This document shows positions 1,996-9,277 of a DNA stretch of 13,459 nt, one piece after another. The stretch's first letter is position 1; each line of letters begins with the position of its first letter. The DNA is from an uncultured Oscillospiraceae bacterium (lineage in GTDB: Bacteria > Bacillota > Clostridia > Oscillospirales > Oscillospiraceae), in contig CALWWS010000256.1 of assembly GCA_944385305.1 (NCBI GenBank), positions 1 through 13,459 of the forward strand, read 5' to 3'. The translations under genes and the position numbers were made by a program. The notes below the pieces were generated by a model. The model was not told where the DNA came from. It ran no database searches and was given only the letters and a program-made list of their open reading frames with translations.

Positions 1996-2028
1996 AAGAA
2001 CAGAAAAGAGGTTGCAAATTTGAAAAAT

Positions 2029-2063
2029 ATATTGCAAAATAAAAATGCAGAATGCAATATAAT
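2029..2063 (+). promoter_or_regulatory. Promoter region of the activator gene with AT-rich inverted repeat
   Basis: A perfect -10 TATAAT is at 2058-2063. The best -35, TTGCAA at 2032-2037, is 20 nt away, longer than usual, so this may need help from an activator. ATATTGCA (2029-2036) is repeated inverted as TGCAATAT (2053-2060), overlapping the -10, and TTGCAAA also occurs at 2012-2018. This could be an operator for autoregulation or a second activator site. The predicted transcript starts near 2070, just ahead of the chosen GTG start. Confidence 0.5.
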
Positions 2064-2097
2064 GGGCCAAACCTACAGACTGATGGAGGAGATGACC

Positions 2098-3999
2098 GTG
2101 ACCGATTACAGCATCGCTTTTATCCTCTCCAGTAAGCTGGTGAGCAACTCCACGCGAAAGGCCTTAAGCCGGCTGAAACTGACCTATCCCGTGTACGCGC
2201 TGTCCATGAAAGACGCGCTGAAAAAAGCCAGAGATTTGATTGACCGGCACGGCACACAGGTCATTGTCAGCCGGGGAAAGACCTGCGACTTTTTGCAGCA
2301 GAATCTGGAGAGCCAGGTTATGGAAATGCCCTTCAGCAGCCTGAATGCGGCGTTTGTGGTACAGCAGGCCCTGCGGCACTCGGAAAAGATTGTCCACATC
2401 GGCACCAAACGGCTCAATCATTATGTCAGAGAGAGCCTGAAGCTGTTGGGCTATCCCCCGGATTTGATTGCCTTTTACCCCATTACCGACGACGGCCCTA
2501 TCAGTCAGTTGGTGCAAAAGGGCGTCGATGCGGGATTTGAGGTGTTTGTAGGCGGGGTGGTAGTGGCCAGCCAGGCAGAAAAATTGGGGAAATATGCCAT
2601 TGAATTCGGCGTGGATGAGCAGATTGTTGAGCTCACCATCCGCAATGCCGAGATGATGCTGCGGAGAATTATTGAAGAGAAGGAGAAGCAGGAGATTATT
2701 CGCATGATCCTCTTCTCCTCCACGGAGCCGCTGGTGGCGGTAAACGCAAAGCAGGAGATTATGCTCTCCAACCTGGCCTTTTCCAACATAGTGGGCTGCC
2801 CGCCGGAGGAGCTGCACGGAAGCCCCTTTGACCCGCTGCTCAAGCAGCACCACATCTATGACGCCATGGACGGCGGCGGAGCAGAGGATCCTGAGGCCGT
2901 ACATGTTATTATGAACCGGTCGCCTGTGCTTGTGAACGGGGCAAATTTTGGAAGTGTGATTACCATGCAGCGGTCGGAGCAAATCCAGCAGCTGGAGTAT
3001 CAGCTGCGCCAAAGTCTCTATACACGGGGCCTGACCGCCAAGCACACCTTTGCCGACATCATCGGAAACAGCCCGGCCATGCAGAATGTGCGCATACAGG
3101 CAATCAACTACGCAAAGTGCAGCGGCACTGTGCTGATCTCCGGGGAGAGCGGCACGGGAAAGGAGCTGTTTGCCCAGAGTATCCACAATGCCAGCAGGAG
3201 AAGCGGACAGCCCTTTGTGGCGATCAACTGCGCCTCCCTGCCTGCATCTTTGATTGAGAGCGAACTGTTTGGCTATGTGGGCGGCGCGTTTTCCGGGGCC
3301 AAAAAGGAAGGAAAAATCGGGTTGTTTGAGCTGGCCAATCAGGGAACCTTGTTTTTGGATGAGATCAGTGAGATCCCCATTGAAATGCAGGCCAAGCTGC
3401 TGCGTGCCATTCAGGAGGGGGAGATCCTGCGCATCGGCAGCGACAAGCTCACCCGGGTGGATGTGCGTATCATTTGCTCCACCAACCGTGAGCTCAAGGA
3501 GCAGTGCAGGCAGGGCAAGTTCCGGGAGGATCTCTACTACCGGATTTGCGTGCTGGAGCTGCTCCTTCCGCCCCTCCGGGAAAGGCTGGAGGATCTGCCC
3601 ATGCTCTGCTATAATCTGCTTATGCGCCACAATAAGCGCTACCATAAAAATATAACCTCCATCCAGCCGGAGGTGCTGCGCCTGCTCAGTCAGCGGGATT
3701 TGGGCGGCAATGTGCGGGAGCTGAGCAATCTCATTGAGAGGATGGTCATTCTGGCCACCGGGAGCAGCATTGATATGGAAACTCTGCGAAGCAGCGGACT
3801 GATACCGGCAGAGCGGGACAGCGCGGAAAAGGGCGTGCCGGTGAGCGGGGAAACCTACAATTTGAAGCACGGCGAACGGGAGACAATCCTGGCGGCGCTG
3901 GAGCAGGCGGGCAACCGGCGCCAGGCGGCTGCGCGGCTGCTGGGTATTCACCCCTCCACCCTGTGGAGAAAGATGAAAAAGTACGGTATGATAAGCTGA
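2098..3999 (+). CDS. Sigma-54-dependent transcriptional activator, PrpR_N-PAS-AAA+-Fis architecture
   Basis: 633 residues. The N-terminal ~190 residues resemble the PrpR_N sensor domain (EKIVHIGTKRLNHYV; DAGFEVFVGGVVVASQAEK), a coiled stretch with EEKEKQE follows, then a PAS-like domain (about 203-290). The AAA+ domain (about 320-560) has Walker A GESGTGKE (349-356), the sigma-54 contact loop as GAFSGA (396-401, usual GAFTGA), Walker B TLFLDE (417-422) and the FREDLYYR segment. The C-terminus (about 595-633) is a Fis-type helix-turn-helix (NRRQAAARLLGIHPSTLWRKMKKYG). It should bind an enhancer and remodel sigma-54 polymerase in response to a small ligand, perhaps an organic acid (inference). 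The GTG at 2098 has GGAGGAG 6 nt upstream and follows a predicted start point near 2070; in-frame ATGs at 2083 and 2092 lack a well-placed site. It is divergent from the operon it probably controls. Confidence 0.93.
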   Translation: MTDYSIAFILSSKLVSNSTRKALSRLKLTYPVYALSMKDALKKARDLIDRHGTQVIVSRGKTCDFLQQNLESQVMEMPFSSLNAAFVVQQALRHSEKIVHIGTKRLNHYVRESLKLLGYPPDLIAFYPITDDGPISQLVQKGVDAGFEVFVGGVVVASQAEKLGKYAIEFGVDEQIVELTIRNAEMMLRRIIEEKEKQEIIRMILFSSTEPLVAVNAKQEIMLSNLAFSNIVGCPPEELHGSPFDPLLKQHHIYDAMDGGGAEDPEAVHVIMNRSPVLVNGANFGSVITMQRSEQIQQLEYQLRQSLYTRGLTAKHTFADIIGNSPAMQNVRIQAINYAKCSGTVLISGESGTGKELFAQSIHNASRRSGQPFVAINCASLPASLIESELFGYVGGAFSGAKKEGKIGLFELANQGTLFLDEISEIPIEMQAKLLRAIQEGEILRIGSDKLTRVDVRIICSTNRELKEQCRQGKFREDLYYRICVLELLLPPLRERLEDLPMLCYNLLMRHNKRYHKNITSIQPEVLRLLSQRDLGGNVRELSNLIERMVILATGSSIDMETLRSSGLIPAERDSAEKGVPVSGETYNLKHGERETILAALEQAGNRRQAAARLLGIHPSTLWRKMKKYGMIS

Positions 4000-4053: not shown

Positions 4054-4097
4054 AACACAGAGGCGGCCTGTCCCGAAGGACAGGCCGCCTCTGTGTT
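4054..4097 (-). terminator. Perfect 20-bp hairpin terminator with UUCG loop
   Basis: Arms 4054-4073 and 4078-4097 are perfectly complementary over 20 bp. Read on the minus strand the loop is TTCG closed by C-G, the extra-stable tetraloop, and the stem runs into TTTTCC, so it is a textbook terminator for the DUF3793-flavodoxin-DtxR-like operon, whose last stop is 23 nt away. Read on the plus strand the loop is CGAA and it can back up the previous hairpin. Confidence 0.88.
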
Positions 4098-4119: not shown

Positions 4120-4533
4120 TCATATCGCCGCAAGGTGAACCCGGTCGGTCAGAAGCTGACGCTGGATCTCTTCCATGCTCTGAGGGGAGAGACAGTACAT
4201 GCAGCTGGCCGCGTCCGACTGGGCCACCTGGGCGTCCACCCCCAGGTAGGTGGTAAAATAGGTCTCCAGCATGGCACGCCGTGTGTAGTAGAGGTTTGCC
4301 TGCCGGATGCCGGCGGAGGTGAGGCGTACACTGCCGTAGTAGCGCTTCTCCACCAGGCGGGATTTGATCAGGCTGTGGAGCATGTGGGAGACGCTGGCGG
4401 GAGTGACCGCCAGGGCTCTGGCAATCTCCACCGAGCGGACGGGGTGGCCCCCGTCGCTGAGCTCGTAGATGGTCAGCAGGTAGCGGATGGCCGCCTGGGA
4501 GAGCTCCATCTCCGTGTTGTTGTTATTCTCCAT
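4120..4533 (-). CDS. DtxR-family-like protein lacking all canonical metal ligands
   Basis: 137 residues. It keeps the DtxR/MntR plan: a winged helix-turn-helix (EIARALAVTPASVSHMLHSLIKSRLVE, about 36-62; wing with RLTSAG) and a short dimerisation region, without the C-terminal SH3-like domain. It aligns almost without gaps to the other DtxR-type protein in this window (5731-6111), and at every metal position the ligand is gone: Asp to Arg17, Glu to Leu20, His to Arg86, Cys to Ala109, Glu to Met112, His to Tyr113. New cysteines (C111, C114) stand in the old metal segment SCMYC. It probably still binds DNA but should not respond to Fe/Mn in the usual way; another signal, or none, is possible (inference). 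The ATG has GAGGA 7 nt upstream, overlapping the flavodoxin stop, so it is the third gene of the operon. The longer frame to 4770 is a shadow over flavodoxin. Confidence 0.85.
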   Translation of the reverse strand: MENNNNTEMELSQAAIRYLLTIYELSDGGHPVRSVEIARALAVTPASVSHMLHSLIKSRLVEKRYYGSVRLTSAGIRQANLYYTRRAMLETYFTTYLGVDAQVAQSDAASCMYCLSPQSMEEIQRQLLTDRVHLAAI

Positions 4534-4543
4534 GTTCGTTTCC

Positions 4544-4975
4544 TCAGGCGGTGGCCAGGTCGCGGCCCAGGGCGCGGCAGGCCTCCAGGTCGTCCGGGCC
4601 GGGGGCCTCGTTGCAGATGAGACCCTCGGGGCAGCACAGACTGGCTCCCCGATCCTCCGTGCGCTGGTACCAGTCCCGCATCCACTGACCGTCCCCCCAG
4701 CCGTAGGAGCCGAAGAGAACCACCTTTTTCCCGGACAGACGGCCCTCCAGGGCGGTGAAAAAGGGCTCAAACTCCGCCTCCTCCAGCACCTCCGCCCCCA
4801 TGGCGGAGCAGCCCAGGGCCAGCCGGTCGTATTTGGCGGCCTCCTCAGGGCCGATCTCGGACACCTGAAACAGCTCCGCCTGGGCTCCCGCCGCTGCCGC
4901 GCCCTCCGCCACCGCCTGGGCCATGGCGCCGGTGTTGCCCGTGCCCGTCCAGTAAATCACAGCCAGTTTGCTCAT
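4544..4975 (-). CDS. Flavodoxin (short-chain)
   Basis: 143 residues, the size of a short-chain flavodoxin. It carries FMN as a one-electron carrier in the cytosol and commonly replaces ferredoxin when iron is scarce. Seen: the phosphate-binding loop TGTGNT (10-15) after the first strand KLAVIYW, and the second FMN loop GSYGWGDGQWM near residues 89-99 with aromatic residues positioned to stack on the flavin. The ATG at 4975 has GGAGGTG 6 nt upstream; an in-frame ATG at 4990 does not. It lies 56 nt after the DUF3793 stop and 10 nt before the DtxR-like start. Iron-box-like palindromes upstream of the operon agree with iron-responsive expression. Confidence 0.93.
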   Translation of the reverse strand: MSKLAVIYWTGTGNTGAMAQAVAEGAAAAGAQAELFQVSEIGPEEAAKYDRLALGCSAMGAEVLEEAEFEPFFTALEGRLSGKKVVLFGSYGWGDGQWMRDWYQRTEDRGASLCCPEGLICNEAPGPDDLEACRALGRDLATA

Positions 4976-5031
4976 GGTCAGCACCTCCATAAATCATAAA
5001 AAGTTATCTTCATTTCCGTATTTTTCCGCCG

Positions 5032-5613
5032 CTAAGCTGCCGCCGGCAGCTCCCCGCCAAAGAGGCCCAGCAGGGTGTTCCCCGCCTCCAGCCGGGCGCG
5101 CAGGATGTCCCGGCAGCGGTCAAAGCGCTGGAAGCAGCGGCGGGCCTGCTGCTCATTGTGATAGACCTTCCAGTAGCCGCAAAAGGTGCACCCCTCGCCT
5201 CGGTGGGCCAGAAAGCCCAGCACATCCTTGGGGGGATAGCCCAGAAACAGCCCAATCTCATGGGGAAAGCCGCTGTCCCGCAGCAGCCGGCGGCGCAGGT
5301 GGTTGAGCAGCGCGGACAGCTCCGACCCGGCGGGGTAGCCCGCCTGCTCCAGAAGCCGGGCCACATCCTCCCGGGCCAGCCAGCCCGCCAGCCGGGCGGG
5401 GCGGTAGACCAGCAGGAGAAAGCGCCGGTTGCAGCGGCACAGCACCTCAAAGCGTAGCCCCCGGCGCTCCAGCGCCCGGGTATACCAGGCCGCCAGACGG
5501 GAGAGGCGGGGATACTCCGAGGCCGACAGGGAAATGAGGCAGGCGGGCTTGAGCCCGGTGAGAGCGGGGGAGCAGTGGGCCACAACGGCCTGTTCAAAGG
5601 GTGCGGAGTACAT
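5032..5613 (-). CDS. DUF3793 family protein
   Basis: 193 residues, matching from memory the DUF3793 family of Clostridia. Seen: HCSPALTGLKPA (13-24), the strongly conserved block FPHEIGLFLGYPPKDV (116-131), then a CxxC in CTFCGYWKVY (142-151) and an Arg/Cys-rich helix (QARRCFQRFDRCRDIL). There is no signal peptide or membrane segment. The biochemical role of the family is not known to me. Its position first in an operon with flavodoxin, behind the same palindromes as feoA, suggests a job in iron limitation or redox adaptation, and the cysteines might bind metal (inference). The ATG at 5613 has AGGAGGTG about 4 nt upstream. A rival frame over nearly the same span (5010-5597) is rich in Pro/Trp/Cys and is rejected. 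Confidence 0.85.
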   Translation of the reverse strand: MYSAPFEQAVVAHCSPALTGLKPACLISLSASEYPRLSRLAAWYTRALERRGLRFEVLCRCNRRFLLLVYRPARLAGWLAREDVARLLEQAGYPAGSELSALLNHLRRRLLRDSGFPHEIGLFLGYPPKDVLGFLAHRGEGCTFCGYWKVYHNEQQARRCFQRFDRCRDILRARLEAGNTLLGLFGGELPAAA

Positions 5614-5628
5614 GGCGCACCTCCTGTG

Positions 5629-5644
5629 GTTAGTATATACTAAC
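5629..5644. promoter_or_regulatory. Palindromic operator site 1 (GTTAG-N6-CTAAC)
   Basis: GTTAGTATATACTAAC is a perfect 16-bp palindrome in the untranslated leader of the DUF3793 operon, directly upstream of the ribosome site. It shares the GTTAG-N6-CTAAC form with five other sites in this window. Confidence 0.75.
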
Positions 5645-5675: not shown

Positions 5676-5691
5676 GTTAGCTGTGGCTAAC
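5676..5691. promoter_or_regulatory. Palindromic operator site 2 (GTTAG-N6-CTAAC)
   Basis: GTTAGCTGTGGCTAAC, exact match in both half-sites, lies a few bases downstream of the predicted start point (about 5695) of the DUF3793 operon, well placed for repression. Confidence 0.75.
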
Positions 5692-5701
5692 CTCTGTTTT
5701 C

Positions 5702-5730
5702 AAAATAACACACTTTATTTTTCCTGTCAA
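5702..5730 (-). promoter_or_regulatory. Sigma-A-type promoter of the DUF3793-flavodoxin operon
   Basis: On the minus strand a perfect -35 TTGACA (5730-5725) is followed after 17 nt by TATTTT (5707-5702). Predicted start is near 5695. The -35 directly abuts the stop codon of the upstream repressor gene. Confidence 0.75.
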
Positions 5731-6111
5731 CTACTTTTTTGAAGGTTGGTTTTTCAGGATGTGGGCGCGGATACAGTTGAAGGTCTGATCGCTGATGTCG
5801 TGCTCCACCTTACAGGCGTCATCCCGGGCAACCTGGGGGTCCACCCCCAGGGCAATGAGCCACTGGGTGAGCAGCCGGTGGCGCTCATACACCTGCTCGG
5901 CAATGGCGCGGCCGGCGTCGGTGAGCTCCAGCCAGCCCTCCTTGTCCATGGTGATATAGCCGTTTTCCCGCAGGCGGCTCATGGCCCGGCTGATGCTGGG
6001 CTTGGTATAGTTGAGCAGGTGCACCACGTCGATGGAGCGCACCATGCCGTTTTCCTGCTTGAGGCGGAGAATGGCCTCCAGATAATCCTCAACCGATTCA
6101 TTAATGGTCAT
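5731..6111 (-). CDS. Short DtxR/MntR-type metal-dependent repressor
   Basis: 126 residues: winged helix-turn-helix (about 24-68) and a dimerisation/metal region; the SH3-like C-terminal domain of classical DtxR is absent, as in MntR. All ligand positions are filled: D9 and E12 (SVEDYLEAI), H78 (YERHRLL), C100, E103 and H104 (DACKVEH). D9/E12 are as in MntR (D8/E11) while Cys at 100 is as in DtxR (C102), so metal preference cannot be read from this alone. The feo and flavodoxin neighbourhood argues for Fe(II). It should bind palindromic operators when metal-loaded, and the GTTAG-N6-CTAAC sites on both sides are the likely targets (inference). The ATG at 6111 has AAGGAG 8 nt upstream; the GTG at 6120 overlaps that site and is unlikely. 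It has its own promoter and shows no such palindrome there. Confidence 0.9.
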   Translation of the reverse strand: MTINESVEDYLEAILRLKQENGMVRSIDVVHLLNYTKPSISRAMSRLRENGYITMDKEGWLELTDAGRAIAEQVYERHRLLTQWLIALGVDPQVARDDACKVEHDISDQTFNCIRAHILKNQPSKK

Positions 6112-6174
6112 ATCTTCCACTCCTTTTCTGGGCGCAGAGGGTTTCCGGCGCGGTGCTGCGGGGGTAGTTTTGTT

Positions 6175-6228: not shown

Positions 6229-6257
6229 TTGACACAGGCGGTTAGTAGTGGTAAACT
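6229..6257 (+). promoter_or_regulatory. Promoter of the feoA1-feoA2-feoB operon
   Basis: A perfect -35 TTGACA (6229-6234), 17-nt spacer and a -10 TAAACT (6252-6257). The spacer and -10 are overlapped by operator site 3, so a repressor bound there would exclude polymerase. Confidence 0.7.
6241..6256. promoter_or_regulatory. Operator site 3 (GTTAG-N6-TAAAC)
   Basis: GTTAGTAGTGGTAAAC matches the consensus GTTAG-N6-CTAAC at 8 of 10 half-site positions and covers the spacer and -10 of the feo promoter. Confidence 0.6.
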
Positions 6258-6272
6258 TCAAGCGTGCATCGG

Positions 6273-6288
6273 GGTAGCAAATGCTAAC
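6273..6288. promoter_or_regulatory. Operator site 4 (GGTAG-N6-CTAAC)
   Basis: GGTAGCAAATGCTAAC matches 9 of 10 half-site positions, in the feo leader, 32 bp from site 3. Confidence 0.6.
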
Positions 6289-6592: not shown

Positions 6593-6838
6593 ATGACAAA
6601 TACCGCTGCGGCGGCGGGGCGCACCCTGCGCACCGTCAAGCCGGGGCAGACCGTCACCGTGAAAAAGCTCAACGGGGGCGGGGCGCTGCGCCGGCGGATT
6701 ATGGACATGGGCATCACCAAGGGCACCGACCTCTATGTGCGCAAGGTGGCGCCCCTGGGGGATCCGGTGGAAATCACGGTGCGGGGATATGAGCTCTCCA
6801 TCCGCAAGGACGACGCCGACAACATTGTTGTGGAGTGA
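6593..6838 (+). CDS. feoA: FeoA-domain protein, second copy
   Basis: 81 residues, a second FeoA domain (about 12-80): LRTVKPGQTVTVKKLNGGGALRR, then RIMDMGITKGTDLYVRKVAPLGDPVEI and the end GYELSIRKDDADNIVVE, the classic 'DMGI-x-x-G...PLGDP-x-E-x-x-x-R-G' core. This copy is closer to the canonical FeoA than the first. It starts 34 nt after feoA1 with GGGAGGAA 7 nt before the ATG. Two tandem FeoA proteins before FeoB are common in Clostridia; they may act as a pair, but no role split can be read here. Confidence 0.93.
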   Translation: MTNTAAAAGRTLRTVKPGQTVTVKKLNGGGALRRRIMDMGITKGTDLYVRKVAPLGDPVEITVRGYELSIRKDDADNIVVE

Positions 6839-6861: not shown

Positions 6862-6877
6862 GTTAGCGGCAGCAAAC
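6862..6877. promoter_or_regulatory. Operator-like site 6 before feoB (GTTAG-N6-CAAAC)
   Basis: GTTAGCGGCAGCAAAC matches 9 of 10 half-site positions. It lies in the 100-nt feoA2-feoB gap and is embedded in a small RNA hairpin (GGAGTT...AACTCC, 6859-6880). No convincing promoter is seen here; TATGAT at 6894-6899 has no -35. Confidence 0.4.
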
Positions 6878-9109: not shown

Positions 9110-9277
9110 ATGCCAAGTCCGGCTACCATTGTCATTGCGCTGGTTCTGCTGGGGATTGTGGCCCTGGTGGTGCGCTACCTGTGGAAAAACCGAAAGAAAG
9201 GCGGCTGTTCCTGCGGTGGGAACTGCGGAGGCTGCGGGGGACATTGTACAGATGCCTCGCATTCCCGGCAGAGCTAG
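9110..9277 (+). CDS. FeoB-associated Cys-rich membrane protein
   Basis: 55 residues. One N-terminal membrane helix (about 6-24, IVIALVLLGIVALVVRYLW), a basic stop-transfer patch (KNRKK), then a glycine-cysteine tail with five cysteines (C33, C35, C39, C42, C46) arranged CSC-GGNC-GGC-GGHC. This is the pattern of the small Cys-rich proteins found after feoB in Firmicutes. By its charge the tail should lie in the cytosol, where it could hand over or hold iron or an Fe-S cluster (inference). The ATG is 17 nt after the feoB stop with GAGG 7 nt upstream, and the operon terminator follows within 11 nt. Confidence 0.85.
   Translation: MPSPATIVIALVLLGIVALVVRYLWKNRKKGGCSCGGNCGGCGGHCTDASHSRQS

Follow-up and report, generated by a model that had tools for sequence, protein, structure and literature searches.

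Some gut bacteria carry, beside their genes for ferrous-iron uptake, a conserved relative of an iron repressor whose metal site is gone and which appears rebuilt for another job. The protein considered here is encoded in a stretch of 13,459 nucleotides from an uncultured Oscillospiraceae bacterium (hereafter, the window). Its best explanation, to which we give a rough probability of 0.45, is a winged-helix regulator that acts independently of metal at the loci of ferrous-iron uptake, found mainly in Oscillospirales, i.e., a conserved DtxR/MntR paralogue without the metal site. No description of a ligand-less DtxR protein at Feo loci was found in the titles and abstract openings of the open-access papers listed. 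A match to an "iron dependent repressor" or MntR profile does not have to mean metal sensing in these bacteria, a point of importance when regulons are annotated.

Family membership and loss of the metal site

The gene, the codons of its altered metal site and the gene of the intact protein with which it was compared are as follows.

4120..4533 (-): CDS of the ligand-less DtxR/MntR-fold protein, 137 aa
4474..4485 (-): codons 17-20, with R17 and L20 replacing the Asp and Glu ligands; R17 in 31/31 aligned proteins, L20 in 30/31, F20 in 1/31
4192..4203 (-): codons 111-114, Cys-Met-Tyr-Cys, at the old Glu/His ligands; C111 in 28/31, C113 in 28/31 (Tyr in the window), C114 in 10/31
5731..6120 (-): intact DtxR-family repressor with ligands D/E/H/C/E/H; PF01325 and PF02742 over cut-off

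The N-terminal helix-turn-helix profile PF01325 matches the window protein with 41.2 bits (cut-off 26), and the metal-binding and dimerisation profile PF02742 reaches 23.7 bits against a cut-off of 27; at E<=0.1 they match 31/31 and 29/31 of the aligned proteins, respectively. The window protein has the two-domain fold of DtxR/MntR. The best match listed in the fold comparison of its model is the Mn- and DNA-bound DR2539 repressor (8pw0_A, 124 residues aligned, rmsd 1.7), and phmmer matches the protein to 8pvt at E=2.6e-8. It is thus similar in fold and length to the short two-domain Mn repressors MntR and DR2539, but differs from them in that all six metal ligands are replaced and cysteines lie at the site. 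With DtxR/IdeR it shares PF01325 over the cut-off and a locus that also encodes an intact DtxR-type protein; however, it is without the ligands and, at 137 aa, too short for the third, SH3-like domain. Fe-S winged-helix regulators are known from the Rrf2 family (IscR, NsrR, RirA), which the window protein resembles in its winged helix, its cysteines and its iron-related setting, but PF02082 gives 19 bits, below its cut-off of 30, and the cysteines are located at the old DtxR metal site. Judged by sequence, it is a DtxR/MntR-fold protein that fails the metal site of the family, and by profile it is not FeoC.

The earlier note, made from the letters of the window, had described a near-gapless alignment to the intact repressor and the loss of all six ligands, and both observations hold. 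BLASTP aligns the ligand-less frame to the intact protein, 5731-6120(-), with 36/124 identities (29%), a single gap and E=1e-13, and the Asp, Glu, His, Cys, Glu and His ligands of the latter correspond to R17, L20, R86, A109, M112 and Y113. The loss extends to the homologues: D17, E20, H86, E112 and H113 are present in 0/31 of the proteins in alignment A2 (31 rows, on which the counts given with the codons above are based), and position 109 is V/I/A/L in 28/31, Asp in 2/31 and Glu in 1/31 (P0010). The homologue search gave three matches with the window protein as query and 12 with a relative from genome G073; ten of these 15 entered A2, the omitted ones (P0007, P0011, P0013, P0014, P0015) being shifted, chimeric or short. 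The two new cysteines that had been noticed, C111 and C114, are indeed present in the window protein, but the conserved pair is C111 and C113. C86 occurs in 13/31 proteins, and C113 and C86 occupy the positions of the two His ligands.

Distribution and phylogeny of the ligand-less proteins

Orthologues with the same ligand loss were found in five other genera among 149 related genomes searched. Profile A1 matched 41 loci in the genome collection. Two of the targets, those in L057 and L079, retain the ligands; the remaining 39/41 are without the Cys-Glu-His triplet, by which we define "ligand-less", or, in the truncated genes L075 and L081, whose N-terminal positions alone are readable, without D17 and E20. 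A Cys at 109, the place of the Cys ligand in intact proteins, is kept in some ligand-less proteins (the L039/L058 type, L066, L076, L077).

The branch with the C111/C113 pair (the CxC branch) comprises proteins from Intestinimonas, Pseudoflavonifractor, Merdimmobilis, Clostridium methylpentosum, some Ruminococcus and others. In the second branch (Dysosmobacter, Oscillibacter and their kin), R17 and L20 are present and the C111/C113 pair is absent; a Cys is found at column 85 in 13/18 proteins, and Cys or His at 109 in a few. Further ligand-less types occur in R. flavefaciens, in Flavonifractor-like bacteria (with Cys at 109 kept) and in Spirochaetales. The two branches, one with and one without the cysteine pair, beside an intact paralogue, offer a built-in contrast.

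In a tree of 87 rows from which the ligand columns had been removed, 43 triplet-bearing and 44 triplet-less proteins are split by one branch with an SH-aLRT of 83 (L004, L030, two rows below 100 aa and five duplicate rows were omitted). The alignment has just 114 columns, and long branches that meet were flagged in the tree, so that long-branch attraction is possible; as a reading of the sequences, a single ancient loss of the ligands would fit. Few loci belong to the CxC branch: of the best 30 loci in a draw from the order (394 genomes), 16 are ligand-less, and five of these are of this type. Profile A3 matched 11/300 genomes of the family at E<=1e-22. A draw from the class (391 genomes, of which 28 matched at E<=1e-24) contained one further clear ligand-less relative among the matches listed, L118; L135, from the same draw, is odd and was left unclassified.

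Genomic context

The neighbouring features of the window are listed below.

4054..4097 (-): hairpin, probable terminator just behind the ligand-less gene, 20-bp stem, TTCG loop; read directly from the sequence and absent from the consensus scan
4544..4990 (-): flavodoxin CDS, directly upstream of the ligand-less gene; PF00258 67.1 bits (cut-off 25), TIGR01753 136.9 (cut-off 123)
5032..5613 (-): DUF3793 CDS; PF12672 181.2 bits
6337..6558 (+): first FeoA-type ORF; a similar ORF lies in the Feo loci of relatives
6593..6838 (+): second FeoA; PF04023 80 bits
6900..9092 (+): FeoB; TIGR00437 568.5 bits (cut-off 315.65)
9110..9277 (+): small Cys-rich peptide behind feoB, of the FeoB-associated type; read from the sequence, with similar ORFs behind feoB in relatives

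The adjacency to flavodoxin stands as first described: some 10 bp separate the flavodoxin stop (4544) from the start of the ligand-less gene, both genes are on one strand, and they are probably co-transcribed. A Shine-Dalgarno-like GAGG, seen by direct reading, overlaps the flavodoxin stop before the ligand-less gene. Small Cys-rich peptides of the FeoB-associated type have been described (PMC8749426). On the other side, a sigma-54 activator with a PrpR_N domain (window 2020-3999) is convergent with the ligand-less gene. DUF3793 accompanies flavodoxin and GTTAG-N6-CTAAC operators at many loci, and the one paper listed under the name DUF3793 concerns a fungus.

The frequency of this context was counted at loci that had been found by sequence, independently of their context. 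From 63 loci entered, L057, with ligands kept, was removed, which leaves 62; L146 (regarded as L072), L135 and L154, which is partial, did not enter the count, duplicates were judged by hand, and the ligand-less gene of L079 was classed by its 74% identity to L066. FeoA/B, flavodoxin or DUF3793 is present in the fetched DNA at 51/62 ligand-less loci, near relatives among them not being independent, and at 46/62 FeoB or flavodoxin precedes the gene on the same strand at a distance of less than 450 bp. In 21/62, the same fetched DNA also contains a gene resembling the intact repressor. The order intact repressor-DUF3793-flavodoxin-ligand-less gene, divergent from feoA-feoA-feoB, recurs in L042, L044, L048 and L049. 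No Feo, flavodoxin or DUF3793 gene was seen in the fetched DNA of seven Ruminococcus-type loci (L053-L055, L063, L070, L071, L073; the flank of L054 and L063 is short on one side), of L157 and of three short or odd contigs (L062, L081, L095).

In the best 30 loci of the order draw, Feo, flavodoxin or DUF3793 genes lie within 1.5 kb in 14/16 ligand-less versus 2/14 ligand-keeping cases (Fisher p=1.3e-4, with near relatives not independent), and in the class draw 12/25 loci with a ligand-keeping DtxR gene have Feo genes within that distance. Since ligand-keeping DtxR genes thus also occur near feoB (2/14, 12/25), Feo linkage as such is a habit of the family; as far as gene order tells, the mark of the ligand-less gene is its place directly behind feoB or flavodoxin. 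The linkage of homologues to flavodoxin and DUF3793 persists in some relatives and not in all. The earlier note had held that homologues with the same neighbours and intact ligands would speak against its reading, and formally such cases exist: a DtxR gene follows flavodoxin-DUF3793 in L065, L068 and L079. The L079 copy and both further L068 copies keep the ligands and group with the intact repressors in the tree. Each of the three loci has, in addition, a member of the ligand-less branch behind feoB.

In the second branch, the stretch that separates the ligand-less gene from the Cys-rich gene contains a hairpin of 12 to 21 bp, which may be an mRNA element or an operator. The region was aligned in eight loci, and three were folded, with z of -3.5 (L066:7961-7990), -8.3 (L079:8640-8687) and -4.8 (L067:7936-7973).

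Comparison with FeoC

FeoC is found in ~5% of proteomes, mostly of gamma-proteobacteria (PMC10353542). It has a winged-helix fold, for which DNA binding is called not demonstrated (PMC7762939); it can hold an Fe-S cluster and shields FeoB from FtsH (PMC10710835), and its gene is positioned behind feoAB (PMC8749426). A metal-blind Feo-linked regulator would be an independent case to set beside FeoC.

One alternative to a DNA-bound regulator, which we consider rather unlikely, though it is the one that fares best, is that of a FeoC-like partner. It assumes that the protein, like FeoC in gamma-proteobacteria, acts on FeoB, on its stability or gating, and not on DNA, and that the cysteines are its oxygen- or iron-sensitive part. 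The ligand-less proteins are like FeoC as Feo-linked winged helices, and at many loci their gene lies behind feoB on the same strand, which is feoC's place (PMC8749426). The same source describes FeoC with and without a cysteine motif, and the C111/C113 pair is likewise found in one branch only. However, in the window the gene sits in an operon divergent from feoAAB and not behind feoB, the model retains a complete dimerisation domain, and the ancestry is that of DtxR. The window protein also gives no match to the FeoC profile PF09012 at E<=1. That profile is not among the 25 of 46 families listed for 31 relatives, and matches weakly in 3/17 second-branch proteins (best E 0.01). In a search of 99 genomes it gave 12 matches, which score 21-26 bits and so exceed the curated cut-off of 21, with none in the window's genome (~80% complete) and one in G112, a genome that also has a ligand-less gene. 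FeoC did not appear among the rows listed in the fold comparisons, an absence without weight. Judged from these data, the resemblance of the ligand-less proteins to FeoC lies in gene position, as seen in many relatives, and not in sequence.

Operators and DNA recognition

The operator-like sites, the promoter and the recognition helix are located as follows.

5629..5644 (.): perfect operator-like palindrome GTTAG-N6-CTAAC, kept in aligned relatives
5676..5691 (.): second perfect GTTAG-N6-CTAAC site, kept in aligned relatives
5702..5730 (-): promoter-like TTGACA-17-TATTTT before the DUF3793-flavodoxin-ligand-less operon; TTGACA identical in 8/8 aligned loci
6241..6256 (.): operator-like site with two mismatches, overlapping the feoA -10 element
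6273..6288 (.): operator-like site with one mismatch, 32 bp further
6862..6877 (.): operator-like site with one mismatch between feoA2 and feoB; comparable locations in some relatives
4363..4401 (-): recognition helix, residues 45-57; helical in the model, 3/13 residues identical to the intact protein

GTTAG-N6-CTAAC, which from knowledge of the family we take to be the binding site of the intact repressor, has seven matches in the window versus 2.2 expected, and 1/200 shuffles gave as many. Both perfect sites and TTGACA are retained in the eight aligned loci; in L046 and L056, perfect sites also lie ahead of the ligand-less gene's called start, and in L056 over it as well. The proposal that the ligand-less gene belongs to the regulon of the intact repressor is borne out to the extent that two perfect copies of the expected operator lie at the promoter of its operon, where the repressor would bind. 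At the feoA promoter (window 6229-6288), one site lies over the -10 element and another 32 bp downstream, a spacing that is 30-34 bp in relatives.

Another alternative is an anti-repressor: mixed dimers with the intact repressor would remove one metal site and lower repression, creating a feedback loop. Such a role, for which the operators beside the gene, the retained fold of the dimerisation domain and the intact-repressor-like gene in the same fetched DNA (the 21 loci counted above) might be quoted, is unlikely. The two proteins share just 29% identity, a deep branch separates the ligand-less proteins from the intact ones, and the last helix is the least conserved element.

The recognition helix had been called well kept, which does not hold at the level of residues: the 3/13 matches with the intact protein lie in a segment that is still helical in the model. 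Intact proteins (n=40) have K at 45 in 37, P at 46 in 30, S at 49 in 38 and R at 56 in 34 cases, whereas in CxC proteins (n=20) position 45 is mostly P, R or K, 46 is mostly A, 49 is mostly V or A (S in three, including the window) and 56 is variable. As the helix differs from that of the intact set, shared operators are doubtful. This weakens the suggestion that the protein is a constitutive competitor for the same GTTAG-N6-CTAAC operators. The locus and the fold are shared, conserved operators lie beside the gene and Ser49 is kept in the window protein, but with the residues usual at 45, 46, 49 and 56 mostly changed in the branch, we regard competition as improbable. An inspection of the aligned promoters by eye for a separate operator of the ligand-less protein brought out nothing beyond GTTAG-N6-CTAAC.

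The metal-independent regulator would itself have to bind DNA, and conservation bears on this differently in the two branches. The best-kept parts of the second-branch proteins are helix 1, helix 3 and the wing (entropy 0.70, 0.74 and 0.66 bits, versus 1.05 overall and 1.82 for helix 5), and DNA binding there looks like the retained function. In the CxC branch, the best-kept parts are helix 1 (0.88 bits) and segment 112-116 (0.84), and helix 3, at 1.36 bits versus a mean of 1.46, is close to average, which counts against our preferred reading. The conservation of segment 112-116 points to the altered site being functional.

Selection on the ligand-less gene

Eight pairs from the CxC branch have dN/dS ratios of 0.17-0.28 (Nei-Gojobori), and the window/G073 pair has 0.47; for the intact neighbours the values are 0.06-0.24 in eight pairs and 0.19 for window/G073. 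The ligand-less copy of the window is therefore faster-evolving than its intact neighbour (0.47 vs 0.19). On these ratios, the ligand-less gene is maintained by selection, less strictly than the intact one. The motif is CLCC in P0002 (84% identity) and P0003 (83%), and CMYC in the window protein; Tyr at 113 is shared by the window protein and its 97% relative P0001, so that Cys113 seems to have been lost recently in the window's lineage. A sequencing error at Y113 is unlikely because P0001, a cluster of nine member sequences, has CMYC in its representative too. A decayed copy without function is highly improbable, even with C113 lost and faster evolution in the window, given the open frame, the purifying selection and this 97%-identical cluster; conservation in relatives from several genera, together with dN/dS, rules out an isolated decay.

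Proposed role of the ligand-less protein

If the metal-independent regulator is the correct reading, then the following course of events can be proposed. When iron is scarce, the intact repressor would leave its operators, and feoAAB and the DUF3793-flavodoxin-paralogue operon would be made together. The paralogue would be in DNA-binding shape without metal and would bind sites of its own, not those of the intact repressor, thereby adding an iron-independent input to Feo expression or to FeoB activity. In the CxC branch this input would probably be the redox or Fe-S state, perceived via C111 and C113 at the old metal site. In the window's lineage, where C113 is now Tyr, the input may be altered or may rest on C111 and C114.

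The idea of a redox or Fe-S sensor, raised in the earlier note, is suited by the conserved cysteines of the CxC branch. It does not extend to the second branch, in which the C111/C113 pair is absent and thiol sensing would not be the shared function. A wider and more tentative view, possible though in our opinion doubtful, is that Oscillospirales evolved their own equivalent of FeoC. A DtxR paralogue would have lost its metal site once and settled in Feo loci, and in one branch thiolates would then have taken over the site, with C113 in the place of one His, C86 often in that of the other, and C111 in addition. The result would be a sensor of redox or Fe-S state that adjusts the uptake of ferrous iron regardless of the iron level.

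Several loci show additional features. In L156 (G590), two ORFs separate the ligand-less gene from the feoB side (L156:5786-8507), one of 77 aa and one of 700 aa, the latter resembling a metal P-type ATPase by eye. The Ruminococcus ligand-less gene of L053, with no Feo gene nearby, is convergent with a rubrerythrin-like gene, as judged by eye (L053:7914-9017); no such neighbour was seen in the fetched DNA of the related L054 and L055. In L019 (G122), a ligand-keeping DtxR protein of 217 aa has a C-terminal part that, by eye, is FeoA-domain-like.
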